Shown one piece after another: positions 2,843 to 52,478 of a stretch of 64,000 bases of DNA. The DNA is from Bacillus sp. EAC (lineage in GTDB: Bacteria > Bacillota > Bacilli > Bacillales > Bacillaceae_G). Each line of letters opens with the position of its first letter. The first letter of the stretch is position 1. Location: assembly GCF_002156875.1 (NCBI RefSeq), contig NZ_NCSY01000004.1:186001-250000 (forward strand), written 5' to 3'. The notes below the pieces were generated by a model. That model made no database searches, was not told where the DNA came from, and saw nothing but the letters and a program-made list of their open reading frames with translations. Both the position numbers and the translations under genes were made by a program.

Positions 2843-2928
2843 AGATAAAGTAATTGGTGGACAAAAAGTGAATTAGTATATATGATTAGATAGAAAATTT
2901 TAAAAATTAAATATAATAAAAATAGAGG

Positions 2929-3118
2929 TGCGAGTTTGTAAGAAAGCTTGCTTAAAAGGGAAGCCGGTTCAATTCCGGCGCGGTCCCGCCACTGTATTTG
3001 CTGAGTAAATCTTTAAATGCCACTGTCTTAATAGATGGGAAGGTTAAGAGGAACGATGACGCATAAGCCAGGATATCTGCCTTTATTGTATGCCACGATC
3101 TCTACGGACGATAGGGAG
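2929..3118 (+). promoter_or_regulatory. Cobalamin (adenosylcobalamin) riboswitch
   Basis: The core has the class hallmarks in order: GGTGCGAG near 2937, GGAAGCCGGT followed by TCCGGCGCGGTCCCGCCACTG (split across 2960-2994), a variable arm, then the B12 box AGCCAGGATATCTGCC (3066-3081). It is followed by an intrinsic terminator and the start of the large secreted protein gene. This is the usual layout for a switch that stops transcription when cobalamin is plentiful. The operon should therefore be on in B12 shortage. Confidence 0.92.
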
Positions 3119-3157
3119 CGGGTTATTCGTGTTGTCTTTTCGGTATTTATGACTTCT

Positions 3158-3202
3158 AATAGCCTTTGACCTATCTTCCAGGTCGAAGGCTATTATTTTT
3201 TT
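3158..3202 (+). terminator. Riboswitch-controlled terminator
   Basis: A 15-base arm AATAGCCTTTGACCT pairs with AGGTCGAAGGCTATT across a seven-base loop and is followed by a T tract. It ends 12 bases before the ATG of the next gene and is the expression platform of the cobalamin riboswitch. Confidence 0.92.
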
Positions 3203-3214
3203 AGGAGGAGTAAC

Positions 3215-6200
3215 ATGAAAAGTTTATTTACACGGTTTTTATCACTTATTCTAATTTTCACCTTGTTAGTACCGACTAGTAGTAACCATGTATTTGGTGA
3301 AGTAAATCAAGTATCTACAAACACAAATGTAATCAATCAAGGGGACATCGAAGCAGCAATTGGAAAATCATTTGCCAAAATGATGAGTTCAGGAACAATT
3401 TCTGGTGATTGGGTAGCATTGGCTGCAGCAAGATCAGGTATTACCGTTTCAACAGATATAAAAACTCAACGTTTAGCAACCATTGAAAACTATGTAAAAG
3501 GTAATCTGAGTGTTACGGACATTGCTAGAACAATCATTGGTATAGTATCACTTGGCGGAGATCCTACAAATATTGGCAACATTAACCTAGTTGAAAAGTT
3601 GTATCAAAGCGATTCTGTAGCGATGAACGCGAAAATATTTTCATTAATTGCTTTAGATACAAATAATTATGAAATTCCATTAAATGCGAAGACACAACGG
3701 GATGCACTAATTACTGGAATACTTAGCTTACAACATATTGATGGTGGATGGTCTCTTTCTTCAAATCTTAATAGTGCCAGTGACCCGGATATTACAGGGA
3801 TGGCAATGACAGCACTTTCTAAGTACAATAGTCAGCCACTAGTAAAAACAGCTATCGATAAGGCTGCTGATTTTTTCAGTGTAAAACAGTTGCCAACCGG
3901 AGGATTCGCTTCCTATGGAACAGAGAATTCAAACAGTGCCTCTCAAGTATTGATGGGGTTAACTTCAAACAATATTGACCCAACTAGTGCCTCATATACA
4001 AAAAACGGAAATAATGTCGTCACAACTTTACTTAGCTATCAGTTACCAGATGGCGGATTTAAATGGATGACTTCAGATACAAAAAATAATTCGTTAGCCT
4101 TAGAGCAAGCTCTTTATGCACTGGATCAGTACATATTTTACTTAAATGGAAAAGGTTCAATATATGACTTTGTCAACAGCCCAGTAATTGACCCAACACC
4201 TATTGTTGATAAAACAAATTTGCAATTAATAATTACTGAAATAGAGGCATTAACCCAAGGGAATTATACGGATTCAAGCTGGCAAACATTACAGATAAGT
4301 TTAAACAATGCAAAATTAGTATTAGCTAATACGAAAGCCACACAAAATGAAGTAGATTCAGTTTTATCAATTTTAACTACATCAAAACAAGCGTTACAAA
4401 CAAAACCAGTTGCACCACAGACGATTTCTGTCTCTTTAACTGTAAATGGACTAAGCACAGCTGCAAAGAAGGACGTAAGTATACCAAATACAAATGCAAC
4501 GATCGAAGCAGGGAAAACAGTTTCGGATGTATTTGAAAAAGTACTTACTGAGAAAGGTATTCCATTTACAAATAATGGTGGTAACTATATTTCTACTATT
4601 AATGGATTGTCCGAATTTGATGGCGGACCAAATAGCGGATGGTTATATTCCGTTAATGGAATCGATCCTAATATAGGCGTTGGGCAGTACGTATTAAATA
4701 ATGGAGACAATATTGTTATTCGATATACTGACGACTATACGAAAGAACCTTCTCAAGGTGGGGGGAACGGCGGTGGTAGTGGATCTGGAGGAAGTCCTTC
4801 ACCTATCTCGCCACAAATTGATCAAGAAATTAATAATATTGGATTACCGTACGATAATAAACAACCAATTGATAAAGTTGGGAAAACAACTGCTGTACAA
4901 AATAGTTCAGCAAAAATGAGCGTTCAACAATCGAATGAACTAAAGAAAAAGCTACAAGAAAATATTATTTCATTAAGTAAATCAATCTCTAATTCTTCTG
5001 ATACTACAGTTAAAGATAACGCAGAAGAGGTAAGTATAATAGTTCCTGCAAACTCAATTTCAAAGGATACAATAATAAATATTCAGGAATTGCAATTAAA
5101 GAGTTCAGAACAACTTTCAAGCGTATATGAATTTACACCTAACGGAACGATCTTTAATAAACCAGTCTATATTTCTATTAAAGTTCCAATTGGGGAAATA
5201 GACCTTAACAATATAGTAATCGCATGGCTTGATGAGAAAAGTAATAAGTGGATTCCTATTCCTGCATTATTAAATGCAAGTACAGGGGTGATTACTGGTA
5301 AAGTAAATCATTTTACGAAATATGCTGTCATTGATCGAAGTAAATTAAACGATCTGGACTCGCAAATAGTGTCAGTAACCAATGAAGTGAAAGAAGCTGT
5401 TAATCAAATTGTTAATAGTGGAACATTATCTGACTGGGAAGCATTTGGCTTAGCTCGTTCAGGGTATATATTACCAAACTCCTACTTATTACAAGTGGAG
5501 AAAAGTTTGAAGGATGAAAATGGAGAGTTCCGAAAAGTAACAGACTATGAAAGAATTGCTATCGCTATTAAAGCAGCAGGTGGTAATCCGATGAACATTG
5601 GAGGCTATAATTTAATTGAAAAAATTTACAATAATGAGAGAATGATAATCCAGGGAATAAATGGCCCGACTTTTGCTTTACTTGCATTAGATAGTGGCAA
5701 TTATCAAATACCTGCAAATGCAAAATGGACAAGAGAAACACTAGTTGACTGGTTATTACAGCAACAAAATGTTGATGGAGGTTTCCCTTTATCAAAAGGT
5801 GATAAGAGTAGTGTTGATATAACAGCGATGGTTCTTACGTCACTTTCTTCTTATAAGGATCAAGTAAAAGTAAAAAATGCTGTAGATCAGGCACTTGAAT
5901 GGCTATCTAAAGAGCAACTCCAAAACGGTGGATATATGCAATATGGGGAAGAAAGCAGCGAAAGTGTTTCACAAGTCATTATTGCTCTTTCATCACTTGG
6001 TATTAAATCAAATTCAATCGCATTTAAAAAAGTTAATGGTGACTTACTAACAAATTTGTTTAGCTTTAAAAATAAGGATGGCGGTTTTTCACATACACAT
6101 GGACAGTCAACAAATGAAATGGCGACTGAACAAGCATTAATGGCACTAGTTTCTATTGATCGTAATAATAATGGAAAAGAAAAAATCTACCAACTTGTTT

Positions 6201-6940
6201 CAAATTCGAAATTTATAATTGCAGAAGTCTCAAATAATTCAAACAGTGTATCAGGACAAACATATCCAGATGCGAATATCACTATAAAAAATAAATCAGG
6301 AAAAGTATTAGCTACAACTAAAGGAAATAGTAAAGGGGTATTTAATACGAAGATACCTGTACAATCTGCTGGAAATATACTGTACTTCACAATAGAAAGC
6401 TCATTAGTAGGGAATGAAGTATACACTTATAAAGTTTTAGATCGTGTTTCACCAGTAACACCCAATGTTAGTCAAGTTGATAATAATGATCGCATAATCA
6501 AAGGAACTGCTGAAAAGTATTCAACTATTTATGCATATGTTGGTTCAAAGGAAATAGGGTTCTCTAAAGCAAATTCATTAGGTCATTACACTATTTCAGT
6601 CAGTGCCCAAAAAGCGAGAGTAACAATAAAATTATACGCTACAGATGCTAGTGGAAATAAAAGTCAAACAAGAATTGTAAATGTTTTGGATAAAACGCCA
6701 CCTGTTATACCAACTGTTAGCTCAGCTACAAGTAAATCGACATTAGTGACAGGTAAAGGTGAAGTCTATTCAACTATTTATATTTTTAATGGAAATAAAT
6801 TAATCGCAAAAACATCTGTTACAAGTAAGAAAACATTCAAAGTTATCATCCCAAAACAAAAGAAAGGGTCCACTTTGAAGATTTACGCACAGGATCGTTC
6901 CAAAAATAAAACGAAAGTAATTTCCTACAAAATTAAATAG
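3215..6940 (+). CDS. Secreted multidomain protein with two alpha/alpha-toroid domains and a transcobalamin-like DUF4430 domain; probable corrinoid-binding protein
   Basis: First gene of the riboswitch operon, 1241 residues with GGAGGAG upstream. Domains in order: signal peptide (1-28); alpha/alpha-toroid repeats of the terpene-cyclase/prenyltransferase fold (about 45-310, with DGGW, GGFAS and DGGFKW turns); a FIVAR-like helical segment (332-395); a DUF4430 / transcobalamin C-terminal-like domain (403-510, GPNSGWLYSVNG); Gly-Ser linker (513-532); a ZU5-like beta domain (605-705); a second toroid (722-992); and three Ig-like Big_6-type repeats (997-1241). Animal intrinsic factor and transcobalamin combine an alpha6-alpha6 toroid with exactly this C-terminal domain. 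With the B12 riboswitch and ECF genes, I infer extracellular cobalamin or cobinamide capture. No LPXTG or SLH anchor is seen, so attachment to the cell is unclear. Binding itself is inferred. Confidence 0.8.
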   Translation: MKSLFTRFLSLILIFTLLVPTSSNHVFGEVNQVSTNTNVINQGDIEAAIGKSFAKMMSSGTISGDWVALAAARSGITVSTDIKTQRLATIENYVKGNLSVTDIARTIIGIVSLGGDPTNIGNINLVEKLYQSDSVAMNAKIFSLIALDTNNYEIPLNAKTQRDALITGILSLQHIDGGWSLSSNLNSASDPDITGMAMTALSKYNSQPLVKTAIDKAADFFSVKQLPTGGFASYGTENSNSASQVLMGLTSNNIDPTSASYTKNGNNVVTTLLSYQLPDGGFKWMTSDTKNNSLALEQALYALDQYIFYLNGKGSIYDFVNSPVIDPTPIVDKTNLQLIITEIEALTQGNYTDSSWQTLQISLNNAKLVLANTKATQNEVDSVLSILTTSKQALQTKPVAPQTISVSLTVNGLSTAAKKDVSIPNTNATIEAGKTVSDVFEKVLTEKGIPFTNNGGNYISTINGLSEFDGGPNSGWLYSVNGIDPNIGVGQYVLNNGDNIVIRYTDDYTKEPSQGGGNGGGSGSGGSPSPISPQIDQEINNIGLPYDNKQPIDKVGKTTAVQNSSAKMSVQQSNELKKKLQENIISLSKSISNSSDTTVKDNAEEVSIIVPANSISKDTIINIQELQLKSSEQLSSVYEFTPNGTIFNKPVYISIKVPIGEIDLNNIVIAWLDEKSNKWIPIPALLNASTGVITGKVNHFTKYAVIDRSKLNDLDSQIVSVTNEVKEAVNQIVNSGTLSDWEAFGLARSGYILPNSYLLQVEKSLKDENGEFRKVTDYERIAIAIKAAGGNPMNIGGYNLIEKIYNNERMIIQGINGPTFALLALDSGNYQIPANAKWTRETLVDWLLQQQNVDGGFPLSKGDKSSVDITAMVLTSLSSYKDQVKVKNAVDQALEWLSKEQLQNGGYMQYGEESSESVSQVIIALSSLGIKSNSIAFKKVNGDLLTNLFSFKNKDGGFSHTHGQSTNEMATEQALMALVSIDRNNNGKEKIYQLVSNSKFIIAEVSNNSNSVSGQTYPDANITIKNKSGKVLATTKGNSKGVFNTKIPVQSAGNILYFTIESSLVGNEVYTYKVLDRVSPVTPNVSQVDNNDRIIKGTAEKYSTIYAYVGSKEIGFSKANSLGHYTISVSAQKARVTIKLYATDASGNKSQTRIVNVLDKTPPVIPTVSSATSKSTLVTGKGEVYSTIYIFNGNKLIAKTSVTSKKTFKVIIPKQKKGSTLKIYAQDRSKNKTKVISYKIK

Positions 6941-6973
6941 CCATTTCTTGTAACAAAATGAAACGTTTACGCT

Positions 6974-7004
6974 GGAGTGAGGAGTTTAATTAACTCTTCA
7001 CTCC
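6974..7004 (+). terminator. Hairpin inside the B12 operon, possible partial terminator
   Basis: GGAGTGAGGAGTT pairs with AACTCTTCACTCC (13 bp, one G-T pair). Only TTATAATTTT follows, so termination would be weak. It may reduce transcription of the transporter genes or protect the 3' end of the first message. Confidence 0.5.
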
Positions 7005-7035
7005 TTATAATTTTGAAACAAGGAGTGTATAACTG

Positions 7036-7770
7036 ATGCTAAAGCTGATTAGAAACAGTTTACTACTATTATTAACAGTTGTAATGGTAACAGCAGTCAC
7101 TGGATGTAATGCTACGTCGAAAAAGGAAACTCTATCGACACAAGAAGCGAATGAGAAACAAGCTGTTGCCTCGACACATGTACAGGATAAAGAAAATGAA
7201 GTAATTGAACAAAAAAAGAAAGAAGCTACGAAAGAGACAAACTCAAAAATAGAATCTGAGCAAAAAGCTTCTACCGAAAATAACGTAAATGAAAAGAAAC
7301 AAAAACAAACTAAGCAGGTAAATCAAGCTTCAAACGAAAAAAAGAATACAAATAGTACATCAAGTACGAATAAGCAGCAAAAACAAATTATATCTAAAAA
7401 ACCAGTTGAAAAAGAGGAAGAGAAAAATATTATTATCTTCTCAATTATTGGAGATAAAGAGGTAGGAACAATTTTTTCTAAATCACAAGTCGAATATAAA
7501 GAAGGAGATTCAGTGTTAGATGTTTTGAAGCGTGTGACGCGTGGTCATAAAATACAAATGGAATATACCGGCTTTAAAGCTACAGCTTACGTGCAAGGAA
7601 TTGATAATTTATATGAATTTGATCGCGGTGGAAAGAGTGGGTGGATGTATCGGGTAAACGCAGTATTTCCGAATGTAAGTGCAGGAGCTTATCATTTGAA
7701 AAAAGGTGATAAAGTGGAGTGGCTCTATACATTGGATCTTGGTAAAGACTTAGGAGCAACTTATAAATGA
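7036..7770 (+). CDS. DUF4430 (transcobalamin C-terminal-like) lipoprotein, probable substrate-handling partner of the ECF transporter
   Basis: 244 residues. The signal peptide ends in a lipobox (AVTGC, Cys24), so the protein should be lipid-anchored on the outer face of the membrane. Residues 25-130 are a Lys/Glu/Gln-rich flexible stalk. Residues 133-244 form one DUF4430 domain with the same signature as the preceding protein (YEFDRGGKSGWMYRVN, then FPNVSAGAY). AAGGAG precedes the ATG, and the stop overlaps the next start by four bases (ATGA). I infer that it holds or passes corrinoid between the large secreted protein and the membrane importer; there is no direct evidence of ligand. Confidence 0.8.
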   Translation: MLKLIRNSLLLLLTVVMVTAVTGCNATSKKETLSTQEANEKQAVASTHVQDKENEVIEQKKKEATKETNSKIESEQKASTENNVNEKKQKQTKQVNQASNEKKNTNSTSSTNKQQKQIISKKPVEKEEEKNIIIFSIIGDKEVGTIFSKSQVEYKEGDSVLDVLKRVTRGHKIQMEYTGFKATAYVQGIDNLYEFDRGGKSGWMYRVNAVFPNVSAGAYHLKKGDKVEWLYTLDLGKDLGATYK

Positions 7771-8636
7771 AAAGTGGGTTTATATCTTTACATCCGTTAG
7801 TATGTTTTTTTTACTATGTTGGTGTATTCCTATTTGCAATGATTTTTTTTCATCCACTTTTTCTCTTAACAGCTATTTTATTTATGATAGGTTTAAATTT
7901 TACGCATGACGGTGGTATAAAGTTAAGAGGGTTACTACCTTATTACTTAGTAATGGGTGGATCTATAGCGATATGTAATCCATTATTTTCTCATAGAGGA
8001 CGAGTCATTTTAACGTATTTCATGGATCAGCCAATAACATTAGAAGCAGTATTTTACGGAGTTACATTGATGCTTTCGTTACTTTTAATACTTTTGACGT
8101 TTTTATCTTTTCAGCAAATTATTACTACTGATAAATTTATGTATTTATTTTCTGGAATTGCTCCAAAAACAGCTCTTATTGCGTTCATGTCGATCCGATT
8201 TGTTCCTTTATTTAGAAGAAGGTTACATCAAATTACTTTAGTCCAACAAACAAAAGGAATATCAATAAGGCACGGAAGTCTCACAAAAAGAATGAGAGAT
8301 GGAATGTTACTTTTGCGAGTGTTATTAACTTGGTCACTGGAAGAAGCATTACAAACCTCTGATTCTATGAAAGCTCGTGGCTATGGAACTACTCGTAGAT
8401 CAGTTTATGTTGTTTATCGTATGGAACGTAGAGATTGGACCCTTTTAATTATTCTATGCCTTCTAGGTCTTTCTTGTATTTTAGGACGGATTAGTGGTTA
8501 TGGAACACTTGAAATTTATCCAATGTTGGAGACCATTCGTTATTCTACTATTGAATGGATTCTATATTTTATATTTTGTTTGTATTTATTCCTTCCCATG
8601 TTTATAGAAATAAATGAAAGGTTGAAGTGGAAATGA
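7767..8636 (+). CDS. ecfT: ECF transporter transmembrane (T) component
   Basis: 289 residues with five or more hydrophobic segments (about 10-45, 50-70, 85-120, 215-240 and 260-280). A long cytoplasmic helical pair carries the two coupling motifs, QTKGIS near residue 170 and MKARGYG near residue 208; the Ala-Arg-Gly form is the signature of EcfT. It links the S component to the ATPases. Start and stop overlap both neighbours by four bases, so it is translationally coupled. As it travels with its own ATPase and S gene it is a dedicated (group I-like) system. Confidence 0.88.
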   Translation: MKSGFISLHPLVCFFYYVGVFLFAMIFFHPLFLLTAILFMIGLNFTHDGGIKLRGLLPYYLVMGGSIAICNPLFSHRGRVILTYFMDQPITLEAVFYGVTLMLSLLLILLTFLSFQQIITTDKFMYLFSGIAPKTALIAFMSIRFVPLFRRRLHQITLVQQTKGISIRHGSLTKRMRDGMLLLRVLLTWSLEEALQTSDSMKARGYGTTRRSVYVVYRMERRDWTLLIILCLLGLSCILGRISGYGTLEIYPMLETIRYSTIEWILYFIFCLYLFLPMFIEINERLKWK

Positions 8637-10291
8637 TTAAAGTAGAAGGACTTTCATTTTGGTACCCAGATGAGCATCATGCTTCATTATCAGATATTTC
8701 GTTCACAATTAACGAAGGAGAGTTCGTCGTGTTATGTGGAGCTTCAGGTTGTGGAAAAACAACACTGCTCAAGCATCTGAAGCAAGAAATTAAGCCAATT
8801 GGAAAAACAATTGGAAATATATTCGTATTTGGTGAGGGAATTGAAACAATATCAAATAAGCGGGCTGCGGAGCAAATTGGTATGGTCTTTCAAAATCCAG
8901 AAAACCAAATTGTGATGGATACGGTATGGCATGAACTTGTTTTCTCTATGGAAAATATGGGATATTCTCTAACTGTTATGCGTAAGAGACTTGCAGAAAT
9001 GGCCAATTATTTTGGATTAGAGTCATTACTTTATAAATCAGTTCATGAATTATCAGGTGGTCAAAAACAACTTTTAAATTTAGCATCTGTCTTACTATTA
9101 CAGCCAAAGTTGTTATTACTAGACGAGCCAACGTCTCAGTTAGACCCAATTGCTGCAAAGGAGTTTCTTCAAATACTACGCCAAATCAATCAAGACTTTT
9201 CAACAACGGTTATCTTAAGTGAACATAGGTTAGAGGATGTCATTCCAATGGCTGATCGAGTGTTTATGCTAGAAAAAGGCAAAATTAAATACGTTGGGTC
9301 TCCTCAATATTTCTGTAATGAAATTGGAAATGGATTAAATAAGTCAGATCTTTCTTATCTACCTGCTGTCACTAGACTTTATTTAAACGGAGAGTGTGTG
9401 AAACCTAAAGAGGGAGAGATAAAATTACCACTTACTGTGCGCGAAGGTAAGAGTTGGTTTACGAAATCTTTTGAATTAAATGATGAAGAATATCAGAATC
9501 ATAAAGTAGTAGATTCAAAGTCTAATTTAGATAGTGAAATGATTTTGGAGTGCAAAGAAGTTACTTTTTCGTATGGAAAGAATGAAGAGGATGTATTGAA
9601 AAAACTCACACTATCAATTTATAAAAATGAATTTCTTGCGATAGTAGGTGGTAATGGGGCAGGTAAAACAACGTTACTACAAGTGTTAGCTGGATTATTA
9701 TCACCACAACGAGGAAAAGTAAAAACTTCAAAATCGAAGAAAATTGGTTACTTGGCACAAAATCCGTTAATATATTTTAGCTATGATACGGTTGAAGAGG
9801 AAATTTTACTTATGGCTAATCAAGCTGGATTAATAGAGCCAGAAAAAGAGATTAAAAATCTACTTATCTTACTAGAAATTGAAGATATTATAAAAATGCA
9901 TCCCCATGATCTAAGTGGGGGGCAACAACAGAAGGTTGCATTAGCAATGGTACTTATTTCTAGGCCAGATATTTTGTTAATCGATGAACCTACAAAAGGG
10001 CTTGATCCTATTGCGAAACTACGTCTAGCTGAACTGCTTCAGGATATTCGTAACACAGGTACTACAATCGTGATGGTAACTCATGATGTCGAGTTTGCTG
10101 CACGACATACATCAAGATGTGCTTTGTTATTTGATGGGTATATTACAACTAACGATGTTCCATCTAACTTTTTCAGCGAGAATTATTTTTATACGACATC
10201 GATTAACAGGCTAGTACGAGATAGACTACCAAATGCCTTAACTGAAGAGGATGTGATAAGGAAATGGGTCGTGCGCGATTATTCCTTCTAG
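8633..10291 (+). CDS. ECF transporter ATPase, two ABC domains fused
   Basis: One 552-residue chain holds both ATPase halves. Domain 1 has Walker A GASGCGKTT (36-44), Q-loop FQNPENQ, signature LSGGQKQ and Walker B LLLLDEPTSQLDP. Domain 2 (from about residue 305) has GGNGAGKTT, signature LSGGQQQKVAL and ILLIDEPTKGLDP, followed by the switch His in VTHD. The FQNPENQ motif is typical of ECF-type ATPases. ATG 8633 overlaps the stop of the T component (ATGA) and is preferred over an in-frame GTG at 8627. The 3' end overlaps the S-component gene by 28 bases. It powers import through the adjacent T and S proteins. Confidence 0.9.
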   Translation: MIKVEGLSFWYPDEHHASLSDISFTINEGEFVVLCGASGCGKTTLLKHLKQEIKPIGKTIGNIFVFGEGIETISNKRAAEQIGMVFQNPENQIVMDTVWHELVFSMENMGYSLTVMRKRLAEMANYFGLESLLYKSVHELSGGQKQLLNLASVLLLQPKLLLLDEPTSQLDPIAAKEFLQILRQINQDFSTTVILSEHRLEDVIPMADRVFMLEKGKIKYVGSPQYFCNEIGNGLNKSDLSYLPAVTRLYLNGECVKPKEGEIKLPLTVREGKSWFTKSFELNDEEYQNHKVVDSKSNLDSEMILECKEVTFSYGKNEEDVLKKLTLSIYKNEFLAIVGGNGAGKTTLLQVLAGLLSPQRGKVKTSKSKKIGYLAQNPLIYFSYDTVEEEILLMANQAGLIEPEKEIKNLLILLEIEDIIKMHPHDLSGGQQQKVALAMVLISRPDILLIDEPTKGLDPIAKLRLAELLQDIRNTGTTIVMVTHDVEFAARHTSRCALLFDGYITTNDVPSNFFSENYFYTTSINRLVRDRLPNALTEEDVIRKWVVRDYSF

Positions 10292-10965
10292 TTATTGTCA
10301 TTTTGTTAGTAGGAGTCCTAGCATTTTCAACTGCTATTTTAGATGACCATTATATATTATTAAGCTTAACATTCCTTGTAATTGCTATGGTTCCATTTTT
10401 CCTACGATTAGAAATAAGAAATATAGAGACACGGGAGTTAGTTTTAATTGCTGTTCTTGCCGCAGTTGCTGCAATTGGAAGAGTTCCTTTTGCACCACTG
10501 CCTAGTGTCCAGCCTACTTCATTTGTTATTATTGTTTCAGCTGTTGTTTTTGGTTCAGAAACTGGTTTTTTAATTGGTGCAATTGCAGCGCTTGTATCAA
10601 ATATATTTTTGGGCCAAGGACCTTGGACTCCATGGCAAATGTTTTGTTGGGGAATGATTGGTGCAACGGCAGGATGGTTAAGAAACACATGGTGGATGAA
10701 AAAAAGACTTGGGCTTTTAAGTTTTGGATTTATATGGGGATTTTTATTTGGCTGGATTATGAATATTTGGTTTCTAATTAGTTTGCCAGATGCGTTAAGC
10801 TGGTCTTTAATTGCATTAGCCTATATAAAAAGTTTTTATTTTGATTTAGCACATGCAGTATGTAATGTATTTTTTCTCGCAGTATTTGGTGGTTCTTGGA
10901 TAAAGATCTTAAAACGGTTTGGAAAAAAATACGGTTTATTAGGTAGACAATCAATGAAGAATTAA
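10264..10965 (+). CDS. ECF transporter S component, probable cobalamin-specific (CbrT-like)
   Basis: 233 residues, mostly hydrophobic, with about six membrane segments. The block RVPFAPLPSVQPTSF near residue 80 resembles the CbrT/COG4720-type S components reported to bind cobalamin in lactobacilli. The small-residue-rich AALVSNIFLGQGPWTPWQM stretch follows. Last gene of the riboswitch operon, starting inside the ATPase gene. Specificity for cobalamin rests on family resemblance plus the riboswitch; other corrinoids are possible. Confidence 0.82.
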   Translation: MGRARLFLLVIVILLVGVLAFSTAILDDHYILLSLTFLVIAMVPFFLRLEIRNIETRELVLIAVLAAVAAIGRVPFAPLPSVQPTSFVIIVSAVVFGSETGFLIGAIAALVSNIFLGQGPWTPWQMFCWGMIGATAGWLRNTWWMKKRLGLLSFGFIWGFLFGWIMNIWFLISLPDALSWSLIALAYIKSFYFDLAHAVCNVFFLAVFGGSWIKILKRFGKKYGLLGRQSMKN

Positions 10966-11668: not shown

Positions 11669-12124
11669 ATGGCAAAAATATTAATCGCATTTGCAAGTAT
11701 GTCGGGAAATACAGAAGATATCGCTGAACTGATTAAAACAACAATTGAATCCCCAAGTCATGAAATCGAAATGAAGGAAATTGAAAACATTAGTTCTCAA
11801 AAACTATTAGACTATGATGGCATTATTTTAGGTGCATATACATGGGGAGATGGAGAACTACCTTACGAAGTGGAAGATTTCTATGATGACATCGAAGGCT
11901 TAGATTTAGCTGGTAAGAAAGTTGCTGTATTTGGTTCAGGTGATCATGCGTATCCTAAATTTTGCGCTGCGGTTGATATATTAGAAGAAAGATTAATAGC
12001 TTGTGGAGCGAACCTAGTCGAGGAAGGACTTAAGGTTGAATTGGCTCCTGAAACAGAAGAAGACATTGAACGATGTGTTACTTTTGCATTCAACTTTTCA
12101 AATAAACTTGAGGAAACTCTATGA
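11669..12124 (+). CDS. Short-chain flavodoxin
   Basis: 151 residues, a low-potential FMN electron carrier. The phosphate-binding loop is SMSGNTED (residues 10-17), the 50s loop GAYTWGDGELP and the 90s loop GSGDHAYPKFC. All three FMN contacts are present and no long-chain insert is seen. In Bacillus subtilis the Fur-regulated ykuNOP operon encodes two flavodoxins that replace ferredoxin under iron limitation; the order here (flavodoxin, then a ykuO-position gene) resembles it. GGAGAG precedes the ATG and the stop overlaps the next start by four bases. Confidence 0.93.
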   Translation: MAKILIAFASMSGNTEDIAELIKTTIESPSHEIEMKEIENISSQKLLDYDGIILGAYTWGDGELPYEVEDFYDDIEGLDLAGKKVAVFGSGDHAYPKFCAAVDILEERLIACGANLVEEGLKVELAPETEEDIERCVTFAFNFSNKLEETL

Positions 12125-13017
12125 ATAACATGTTCAGTTCTACTGCTGTCTCAAGAACTGAAAGCGGTAGTGTCGTATTAGCTACCTCAAATAACGGACT
12201 TTTAATTGAAAAGGACGGACATTGGATTCATTCATTATCTCAATTAAACTATCATATCCGAGATCTTAAATGTGTCGGTAAAATGATTTATGGTGTTGGT
12301 GAAAATGGGGTATTTATTAAAAGTGAGAATGAGGGGAAAGATTGGTCAATAAAGCATTTCCCTACGAAAGCAAGTGTTTGGAGTTTATGTTGTAATTCAA
12401 AAGGTCTTGTAATAGCTCATGGTGAGAAAGTGATTTACATATCGACTAACTTTGGAGAAACCTGGAAAGTAATTTCTCCATTTACAGTTAATAATTCTCC
12501 TTCAATTCGTTCTTTATGTTTATTTGAAGATAAGTTATTTATCGGTACAAAGATTCATCCTGAAAATGGAGGAATCTGGATGCTCGATCTAAATACGTTT
12601 GAGTCAGTAAGAGTTAAAGTTGAGACTGAAAAAATGATATCGTCAATGTTAGTGCATGATGAACTACTTGTAGCTGTCAGTGGCTCGTGTCGTGGGAAGA
12701 ATGGAGTCTTGGAATTCATTCCATTACCCTCCATTAGAAATAAAAGCGAACATAAGTGGAACGCATGCTATAGCGCCGATGGGCAAGGAAGTTACTTAGA
12801 TATTTGCGCTCATAATGGAATCTTGTTTACATCGTCTACTCAAAATGAATCTGGATATAGTACCGTCTCGCGTGTGTATCTTGAAAAACAGCTTTTAGTA
12901 CCTTGTGATTATGTTAAAGGACATGGCTGGAGAATCTGTAATGAGAATGAAAATTACATTGTAGCCGGTCAGCATGAAACAAGAGTATATTTAAGTAACG
13001 CACAAAGAGTTTGTTAA
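12121..13017 (+). CDS. Beta-propeller (BNR/WD-like) protein of the flavodoxin operon
   Basis: 298 residues, translationally coupled to the flavodoxin (ATGA overlap). No signal peptide. Repeated strands with SENEGKDWS and STNFGETWK match the Asp-box (BNR) turns of six- or seven-bladed propellers, and about seven cysteines are scattered. It occupies the position of ykuO in ykuNOP; I cannot confirm homology by eye. Function is unknown, but co-expression with flavodoxin points to an iron-limitation role in the cytoplasm. Confidence 0.65.
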   Translation: MNNMFSSTAVSRTESGSVVLATSNNGLLIEKDGHWIHSLSQLNYHIRDLKCVGKMIYGVGENGVFIKSENEGKDWSIKHFPTKASVWSLCCNSKGLVIAHGEKVIYISTNFGETWKVISPFTVNNSPSIRSLCLFEDKLFIGTKIHPENGGIWMLDLNTFESVRVKVETEKMISSMLVHDELLVAVSGSCRGKNGVLEFIPLPSIRNKSEHKWNACYSADGQGSYLDICAHNGILFTSSTQNESGYSTVSRVYLEKQLLVPCDYVKGHGWRICNENENYIVAGQHETRVYLSNAQRVC

Positions 13018-29029: not shown

Positions 29030-29265
29030 AGCACACTAATAATAAAGAGTGCTATTGGAACGGATATGCGAGACTCCTGTGGGAGTAGCGGATGAGACCC
29101 CGCAAGGCGTCAAAAGGTAGGCATGCTAATACTACGACGTCCTGTCGGAACGCATGCATGACCCACATCGTGTGGGCTCAAGGCTTATCGCTCGCCCCAC
29201 GGAAAGCGAGAATCCTGGAGTGGAAATCGAGAAAATTCCATTTTAAATAGAGTCAAATTTTACTT
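29030..29265 (+). repeat. Dispersed palindromic repeat with inserted module (copy 5, plus orientation)
   Basis: GCGAGACTCCTGTGGGAGTA and GATGAGACCCCGC match the core. Between core halves lies an extra module: GGCATGCTAATACTACGACG, GTCGGAACGCATGC and CCCACATCGTGTGGG, each part of nested inverted repeats. The copy closes with CACGGAAAGCGAGAATCCTG. The same module occurs at 38241 and 52187. Confidence 0.82.
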
Positions 29266-38240: not shown

Positions 38241-38515
38241 GTTTTTTCTAAAAGATTGCTGTTTTTAAAGCAAACTGAAAATAAAGTGGATGATTGGCGC
38301 GGATATGAGAGACTCTTGTGGGAGTAGCCAGACAGTTGAGACCTTAGCAGTGGTGAAAAAGGTGTAGGCATGCTAATACCACGACGTCCTGTCGTAACGC
38401 ATGCAAGATCCACATCGTGTGGGCCAAGGAGGCTCATCACACGCGAGCATCTTGAAGTGGAAATATACAATTCTGCATGTTTAATAGCAACAAATTTTAC
38501 GAATGAAGCCATCTT
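38241..38515 (+). repeat. Dispersed palindromic repeat, long form with inserted module (copy 7, plus orientation)
   Basis: Starts with TTTTCTAAAAGATTGCTG and ends with TTTTACGAATGAAGCC. The core GAGACTCTTGTGGGAGTAGC is followed by the inserted module (GTAGGCATGCTAATACCACG, CCTGTCGTAACGCATGC, CCACATCGTGTGGG) and GCGAGCATCTTGAAGTGG. The open frame on the minus strand is only repeat translation. Confidence 0.85.
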
Positions 38516-52189: not shown

Positions 52190-52478
52190 GCTGTTTTCGT
52201 AAACATTGTTACTATTAAAAAGCATTTTCTTGATTTCTACTCCAGGATGCTCGCTTTCCGTGCGGCGTGCAATAGCCAACTGGGCCAACGCGATGTGGGT
52301 CATGCATGCGTTACGACAGGAAGTCTTGATATTTGCATGCCTACCTTTTTAATCCTTGTGTGGTATCACCTGTCCCGCTACTCCCACAGGAGTCTCGCAC
52401 CTTCCGTACCAATCATTTCTTTAATTATAGTTTTTTTAAAAAATCCTATTAAAAACAACAATCTTTTAGAAAAGACCT
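52187..52478 (-). repeat. Dispersed palindromic repeat, long form with inserted module (copy 9, minus orientation)
   Basis: Begins with GCTGTTTTCGTAAACATTG and ends with AAAACAACAATCTTTTAG. Contains CCAGGATGCTCGCTTTCCG, the inserted module in reverse (GGGTCATGCATGCGTTACGA, then ATTTGCATGCCTACC) and CTACTCCCACAGGAGTCTCG. The open frame over it on the plus strand is repeat translation only. The rest of 52479-52655 is AT-rich without a gene. Confidence 0.85.

Follow-up and report, generated by a model that had tools for sequence, protein, structure and literature searches.

Does the operon near the start of this window capture corrinoids at the surface of a Gram-positive cell and import them, and which of its proteins touch the ligand? 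The window, a stretch of 64,000 nucleotides (nt) from Bacillus sp. EAC (contig NZ_NCSY01000004.1, positions 186,001 to 250,000), contains an operon of five genes, all on the plus strand, at 3215–6940, 7036–7770, 7767–8636, 8627–10291, and 10264–10965. They follow a cobalamin riboswitch and encode a secreted protein with toroid and DUF4430 domains, a DUF4430 lipoprotein, and the components of an energy-coupling factor (ECF) transporter. A previous reading made from the letters alone (the sequence-only reading) had proposed a capture-and-import route for corrinoids, comparable to animal intrinsic factor plus a receptor. Our analysis indicates that this is very probably a corrinoid scavenging operon that joins surface capture to ECF import.

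The riboswitch aptamer lies at 2909–3098 (plus strand) and matched RF00174 over the full model (cmscan 118.5 bits, E 4.2e-29, model positions 1–189 of 189; gathering score 31.5 bits). The sequence-only reading had placed a cobalamin riboswitch with a terminator here, and both were recovered; the aptamer, however, begins 20 nt upstream of position 2929, where that reading had started the region. The terminator hairpin of the expression platform (3157–3195, plus strand) has 16 pairs followed by TTTTTTT and ends directly 5′ of the ribosome-binding site of the first gene. The leader between aptamer and start codon (3099–3214) had a folding energy of −40.6 kcal/mol (z −4.05). A terminator-like site was present between riboswitch and gene start in 37 of 42 riboswitch-bearing relatives, compared with a mean of 3.4 in dinucleotide shuffles. 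An earlier scan, which took 190 nt upstream plus 60 nt of the frame and included one internal gene (of locus L017) among its 44 inputs, found such sites in 38 of 44 stretches upstream of toroid genes and in 2 of 44 letter-shuffled ones. Tandem cobalamin riboswitches were also observed before the operon, three in L018 (G004:C1:2849107-2850139) and two in L086 (G240:C21:661-1224); such arrays may sharpen the response to B12.

The last three genes encode T, fused ATPase, and CbrT-like S proteins, as the sequence-only reading had named them. The conserved EcfT, a CbiQ-type transmembrane component (7767–8636), matched no Pfam model itself at E 0.1; three of its homologues were tested and matched CbiQ (PF02361), the best at 3.1e-14. 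The fused EcfA–EcfA′ ATPase (8627–10291) has two ABC domains, seen as two ABC_tran stretches, and scored over the cut-off in two NCBIfam ECF ATPase models. The substrate-binding S component (10264–10965) matched CbrT of Lactobacillus delbrueckii (6fnp_A) at E 2.4e-13. When a profile of 44 S proteins was compared with the PDB, the same CbrT chain was the one significant match (E 2.5e-24; next 0.029). With a T component and two ATPase domains present, this is an ECF transporter of the CbrT type. Reconstituted in liposomes, CbrT carries both cobalamin and cobinamide (PMC5997447).

Conservation was assessed in an order sample of 299 genomes and a phylum sample of 199 genomes, in both of which related genomes are not phylogenetically independent. 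Long S proteins (at least 150 bits) were found at 43 places in 42 of the 299 order genomes, and a family search added two genomes. Including the window, there were 45 instances of the operon, one of which (in G216) was split over contigs. The genes for the toroid protein, DUF4430 protein, T, A–A′, and S stood in that order in all 44 intact instances, window included, and 43 of these had a cobalamin riboswitch upstream. One such riboswitch, in G054, was weak and partial (38.6 bits), and the operon L084 of G093 had none, also in a more permissive search. The riboswitches and the CbrT match of the S profile uphold the substrate proposed by the sequence-only reading, and we conclude with high confidence that corrinoid is imported under B12 control. 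Relatives of the operon were also located on mobilizable lactobacillus plasmids, L087 (p1_CACC879) and L088 (pMF1298-5). In L088, a gene annotated as 'fucose-binding lectin II' has a toroid match.

The usual view is that ECF importers do without a binding protein. In the genomes searched here, the CbrT-type S component was paired with a DUF4430 protein almost without exception, also as a toroid-free unit of riboswitch, DUF4430 gene, and S gene, and this pairing is apparently new. The two proteins were sought independently in the order sample, where S and DUF4430 each turned up in 114 of the 299 genomes and coincided in 113 (Fisher p 2e-81, kinship ignored). The exceptions were G157, with a weak S match and no DUF4430, and G070, with DUF4430 and no S. 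In the phylum sample, an S protein of at least 100 bits was found in 60 of 199 genomes (out of 75 with E ≤ 0.001, the 15 weaker ones, among them the DUF4430-bearing G320 and G498, having been dropped beforehand), DUF4430 in 62, and both in 58. The two matches lay within 10 kb on one contig in at least 51 of these 58. Here the exceptions were G390 and G477 (S without DUF4430) and G320, G439, G493, and G498 (DUF4430 without such an S).

The toroid-free unit involves shorter S proteins that are nearer to CbrT (up to 43% identical) and adjoin a DUF4430 protein, the S-match frames being about 165–205 amino acids (aa) and the DUF4430 frames about 125–250 aa long. In at least 54 of these pairs, 257–650 nt separated the DUF4430 match from the riboswitch upstream of it, and the DUF4430 and S matches were −23 to 27 nt apart; these 54 are the pairs with all three places among the matches listed, and against the 73 genomes with a short S they do not give a rate. 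Any cobalamin riboswitch was present in 64 of the 71 genomes in the riboswitch search behind this comparison. Among 20 short-S loci of 5–6 kb each, which we picked ourselves, 18 had a cobalamin-type riboswitch at gathering score (14 RF00174, 4 RF01482). L112 gave an AdoCbl-II match below threshold; L102 had none, and its DUF4430 gene is on another contig. Three of the 20 (L101, L109, L110) had a toroid gene beside the DUF4430 gene and no T or A genes in the stretch; in the other 17, no toroid gene was present within the 5–6 kb examined. A cobalamin adenosyltransferase lies near the S gene in L104 (by Pfam) and in L106, L107, and L112 (by sequence start only).

On the capture side, the operon encodes two surface proteins, both recognized by the sequence-only reading. 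The lipoprotein (7036–7770) has a DUF4430 domain at aa 157–232 (Pfam 5.8e-18) and a lipobox-like VTGC with Cys24. The first gene (3215–6940) is an open reading frame for a secreted multidomain surface protein of 1241 aa, and a toroid protein occurs in this place in each conserved operon. Pfam found in it Prenyltrans toroid, DUF4430, FIVAR, and Big_6 matches. Toroid 1 (aa 42–325; 3338–4189) scored 322 bits against our toroid hidden Markov model (HMM) in L005, which has the same start codon. It is followed by a FIVAR domain (aa 332–394; 4208–4396; 9.2e-5, 23.4 bits, below the cut-off of 29.2), which sits between the toroid and the DUF4430, or transcobalamin C-terminal-like, domain (aa 423–508; 4481–4738; Pfam 2.3e-16, own HMM 89 bits). 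Beyond these, the protein contains a second toroid, a weak ZU5-like stretch, and Ig repeats, all of which the sequence-only reading had overlooked. The ZU5-like stretch (aa 602–655; 5018–5179) had E 0.017 and 15.8 bits, below the cut-off of 21. Toroid 2 (aa 719–1000; 5369–6214; 391 bits) aligns with toroid 1 at 38% identity and outscores it against the toroid of most relatives. The C-terminal Ig-like Big_6 repeats (6251–6937) gave three Pfam stretches, and no LPXTG was seen by eye in this protein.

Some features of these chains vary among relatives. The tripeptide HFT (aa 699–701; 5309–5317, read in L005) precedes toroid 2, and an HF[ST] tripeptide stands just before the last toroid in L049, L050, L051, L053, L060, and L064 as well, which are the six relatives that match the ZU5-like stretch of the window. 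HFS marks a self-cleavage site in the ZU5 proteins of animals; given this resemblance, cleavage of the chain might occur between DUF4430 and toroid 2. DUF4430 copies per chain reach six in L049:5612-10717 and ten in L064:5594-11785, as if multiplying capture sites. The genes had been described as mostly overlapping, which is true of genes 2 to 5, with overlaps of a few bases, but not of genes 1 and 2, which are separated by a 95-nt gap. In this gap lies a hairpin (6974–7004, plus strand; 13 pairs, weak T tail), a possible attenuator or processing site that may set a differing dose of surface protein and transporter.

In most respects, this arrangement was anticipated. Burroughs et al. (2007; PMC1796856) predicted, in the portion of the paper available to us, that bacterial toroid plus SLBB proteins scavenge B12 with toroid and SLBB cooperating, that second SLBB proteins may form complexes, that CbiO and CbiQ genes lie nearby, and that animals acquired their gene from low-GC Gram-positives. 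The window shares with those operons a secreted toroid plus SLBB protein, a second SLBB protein, a CbiO-like ATPase and a CbiQ-like protein, FIVAR and Ig fusions, and the usual lack of B12 synthesis enzymes, with no CbiC. It differs from them in the two toroids of its surface protein, and the available portion of that paper does not name an S component, a riboswitch, toroid-free DUF4430–S units, or a toroid and an SLBB domain carried by different proteins. The inference of the sequence-only reading is thus sound but not new. No experimental test of the 2007 prediction was found in the open-access literature searched, nor was the DUF4430–S pairing or the split arrangement described below found there in print.

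The toroid and DUF4430 domains are not always on one chain. Among 49 toroid proteins in the fetched loci, eight had no DUF4430 (HMMER filters off), as judged by an HMM built from the same family. A separate DUF4430 protein is encoded in the operon of all eight; in seven, it fails the lipobox pattern and by eye has an N-terminal hydrophobic stretch. The eighth is L017, where the other toroid protein does carry a DUF4430. The lipobox criterion, a simple sequence pattern, rejects 14 of 64 DUF4430 proteins, two of which (L063 and L068) nevertheless have the look of lipoproteins by eye. Three toroid-only proteins have LPXTG near the end. The separated fragments of animal intrinsic factor, IF30 (toroid) and IF20 (C-terminal), together bind cobalamin tightly (PMC6257451, available text), which makes a two-piece binder chemically reasonable. 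By this analogy, the eight separate-chain cases, which look new, suggest a split intrinsic-factor-like binder, a possibility that we hold only tentatively for part of the family. Equally tentative is the wider idea that CbrT-type ECF importers in Bacillota might have a near-obligate membrane-anchored DUF4430 partner and a toroid in trans, a split intrinsic factor that is perhaps the ancestral form of the animal carrier.

The B12 context of the host genome was also investigated and fits a cobalamin substrate. The genome has three cobalamin riboswitches, at this operon and at two other loci. One (L012) precedes btuF–btuC–btuD-like genes and a cobalamin adenosyltransferase, a set that the sequence-only reading had overlooked; btuC and btuD are named here from sequence start and position, Pfam giving a generic periplasmic binding protein only. 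The other (L013; G000:C11:501984-502190) precedes metE, the B12-free methionine synthase. A DUF4349-like lipoprotein considered for the latter riboswitch was rejected as it lies on the wrong strand, metE being the correctly oriented gene. B12-binding domains were found at five places over the cut-off and one below; by size and sequence start, several of these proteins resemble MetH, mutases, and a radical-SAM protein. CbiC, the one marker gene by which B12 synthesis was judged, was not found in this genome. It was present in 5 of 44 operon genomes, compared with 7 of 14 genomes of the family that were searched and lack the operon, a difference that favors scavenging.

We propose the following mechanism. 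When cellular cobalamin is low, the riboswitch would let transcription pass the terminator, as expected from the riboswitch family and the anatomy of the leader. At the surface of the cell, cobalamin or cobinamide would be captured by the secreted toroid/DUF4430 protein together with the DUF4430 lipoprotein anchored in the membrane; toroid and beta-grasp domain would probably close over the ligand as they do in animal intrinsic factor and transcobalamin. In the arrangement that we favor, the closing partner of toroid 1 is the DUF4430 domain on the same polypeptide, and toroid 2 can use that of the lipoprotein. From the lipoprotein, the ligand would then pass to the S subunit of the CbrT type, and the T–A–A′ module, by homology to ECF-CbrT, would drive ATP-dependent import. 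That the surface proteins bind corrinoid is likely, and the toroid probably takes part in the binding.

Several results weigh against this picture. The window S protein scored over the cut-off in the Pfam family ECF-ribofla_trS (PF07155; 48.6 vs. 26.7 bits) and lower in the general ECF family (44.2 bits) than in this riboflavin-named one, as might be expected if S carried another vitamin such as riboflavin. It could likewise be argued that the DUF4430 proteins bind some other ligand or peptidoglycan and serve for anchoring only, as DUF4430 is still labelled 'unknown function' and some SLBB domains are predicted to bind polysaccharide (PMC1796856, available text). Both versions are very improbable in our view, given the near-perfect co-occurrence of DUF4430 and S across the two samples and the cobalamin riboswitches of the operons. 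The NCBIfam riboflavin equivalog model (RibU) gave the window S 32.2 bits against a required 99, and the folate model 21.1 against 60; with the PDB profile and the riboswitch, this led us to reject riboflavin or folate as the substrate. The rejection also rests on the short S of L101, which is 43% identical to CbrT and crosses the PF07155 cut-off too (35.9 bits), CbrT itself scoring 23.3 bits, below it. We consider the Pfam label too broad, since cobalamin is what the riboswitch and all of the surrounding genes indicate. CbrT-type S proteins exceed the PF07155 threshold both at 10264–10965 of the window and at L101:3290-3877, so naming by that family alone may mislabel B12 importers. An objection of another kind is that five of the operon genomes do have CbiC. 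The substrate could also be a precursor or fragment (cobinamide, alpha-ribazole, or cobalt) in place of intact cobalamin, given the transport of cobinamide by CbrT (PMC5997447) and the early link of CbiQ/CbiO-like subunits to cobalt (PMC1796856), both from the available text of those papers. This we consider improbable: the PDB match of the S component is CbrT, the genome also encodes an adenosyltransferase and B12-binding domains, and in a genome without CbiC, cobalt alone would not help.

The remaining objections concern the surface proteins. ECF-CbrT in liposomes apparently transported without surface partners in the available account (PMC5997447), so such partners would be dispensable for transport as such. 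Likeness to the animal carriers holds at the family level for DUF4430, the C-terminal domain of human transcobalamin scoring over the cut-off in the DUF4430 model PF14478 (25.0 vs. 23.8 bits). Direct comparison with transcobalamin was weak (DUF4430 E 0.0067, toroid E 0.033), and neither DUF4430 nor toroid profiles retrieved transcobalamin or intrinsic factor from the PDB at E 1. The animal-like toroid is the part of the sequence-only reading that fared poorly: neither the whole window protein (at E 0.1) nor its toroid 2 matched Cobalamin_bind (PF01122), and among 52 toroids scanned, most matched prenyltransferase/cyclase models and four matched Cobalamin_bind (best E 3.8e-4). Transcobalamin has the motif VDTAAM, in which Asp176 stands three residues past His173 by counted position; we take both residues to have a role in B12 binding. 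In the bacterial toroids, an Asp within DITAM is invariant; we did not count this as a likeness because cyclases carry a similar motif. The toroid-then-DUF4430 order of the animal proteins is found with toroid 1 of the window and in L084 and L085, whereas in most relatives DUF4430 precedes the toroid, and most of the toroids scanned gave no match to the animal toroid family. In a rival explanation, the toroid protein serves as a scaffold or adhesin in the cell wall that only positions the lipoprotein, while DUF4430 and S alone touch the ligand. The FIVAR and Ig repeats, the LPXTG of some relatives, the chains with up to ten DUF4430 copies, the 17 short-S loci without a nearby toroid gene, and the matches of the toroid mainly to cyclase, prenyltransferase, and TED folds all agree with it. 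We nevertheless think it rather unlikely, as the toroid is kept in 44 of 44 five-gene operons and stands beside DUF4430 in L101, L109, and L110, and transcobalamin sandwiches B12 between a toroid and a beta-grasp domain (PMC1796856, available text). Capture by toroid and DUF4430 together is the reading that we prefer.

This preferred reading can be set beside other B12 uptake systems, as far as the available texts of the papers cited describe them. ECF-CbrT of L. delbrueckii (PMC5997447; PDB 6FNP) is alike in S homology, T component, and two ATPase domains; it is a purified complex in liposomes, whereas in the window the operon itself encodes the module, with its ATPases fused, along with two surface proteins. 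CbrTUV of the L. plantarum plasmid pMF1298-5 (PMC6722938) shares the T–A–S order and an S that is 41% identical, and downstream of it lie a DUF4430 gene and a toroid-like protein. The order of the surface genes differs, and the available text names CbrV, CbrU, CbrT, and salvage genes but not the surface proteins. BtuH of Bacteroides (PMC8941943) is likewise a B12-binding surface protein that serves a transport system, yet it belongs to a different protein family; one Firmicutes btuH homologue lies near a predicted ECF-like gene. BtuFCD shares riboswitch-controlled B12 uptake and has an unrelated importer architecture.

The flanking NIF3, IDEAL, flavodoxin, and pyrH genes and the gene at 12121–13017 were considered as further operon members and rejected, since the related stretches that were fetched gave no match to them at 1e-5. 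Three scans of viral contigs yielded no homologue of the operon. A lipoprotein scan of genome contigs gave three loci (two Epulopiscium DUF4430 genes and one weak match), where no ECF gene adjoined by the query set. Elsewhere in the window, three Bacillaceae-1 RNA elements (RF01690) were identified, at 29110–29176, 38357–38423, and 52285–52351.

If the proposed reading is true, it would explain how Gram-positive bacteria capture scarce B12 at their surface, and it would give DUF4430 a function and ECF importers a capture partner. The 2007 prediction would become directly testable with the small proteins of the short form, and there would be living bacterial relatives in which to test the origin of animal intrinsic factor.

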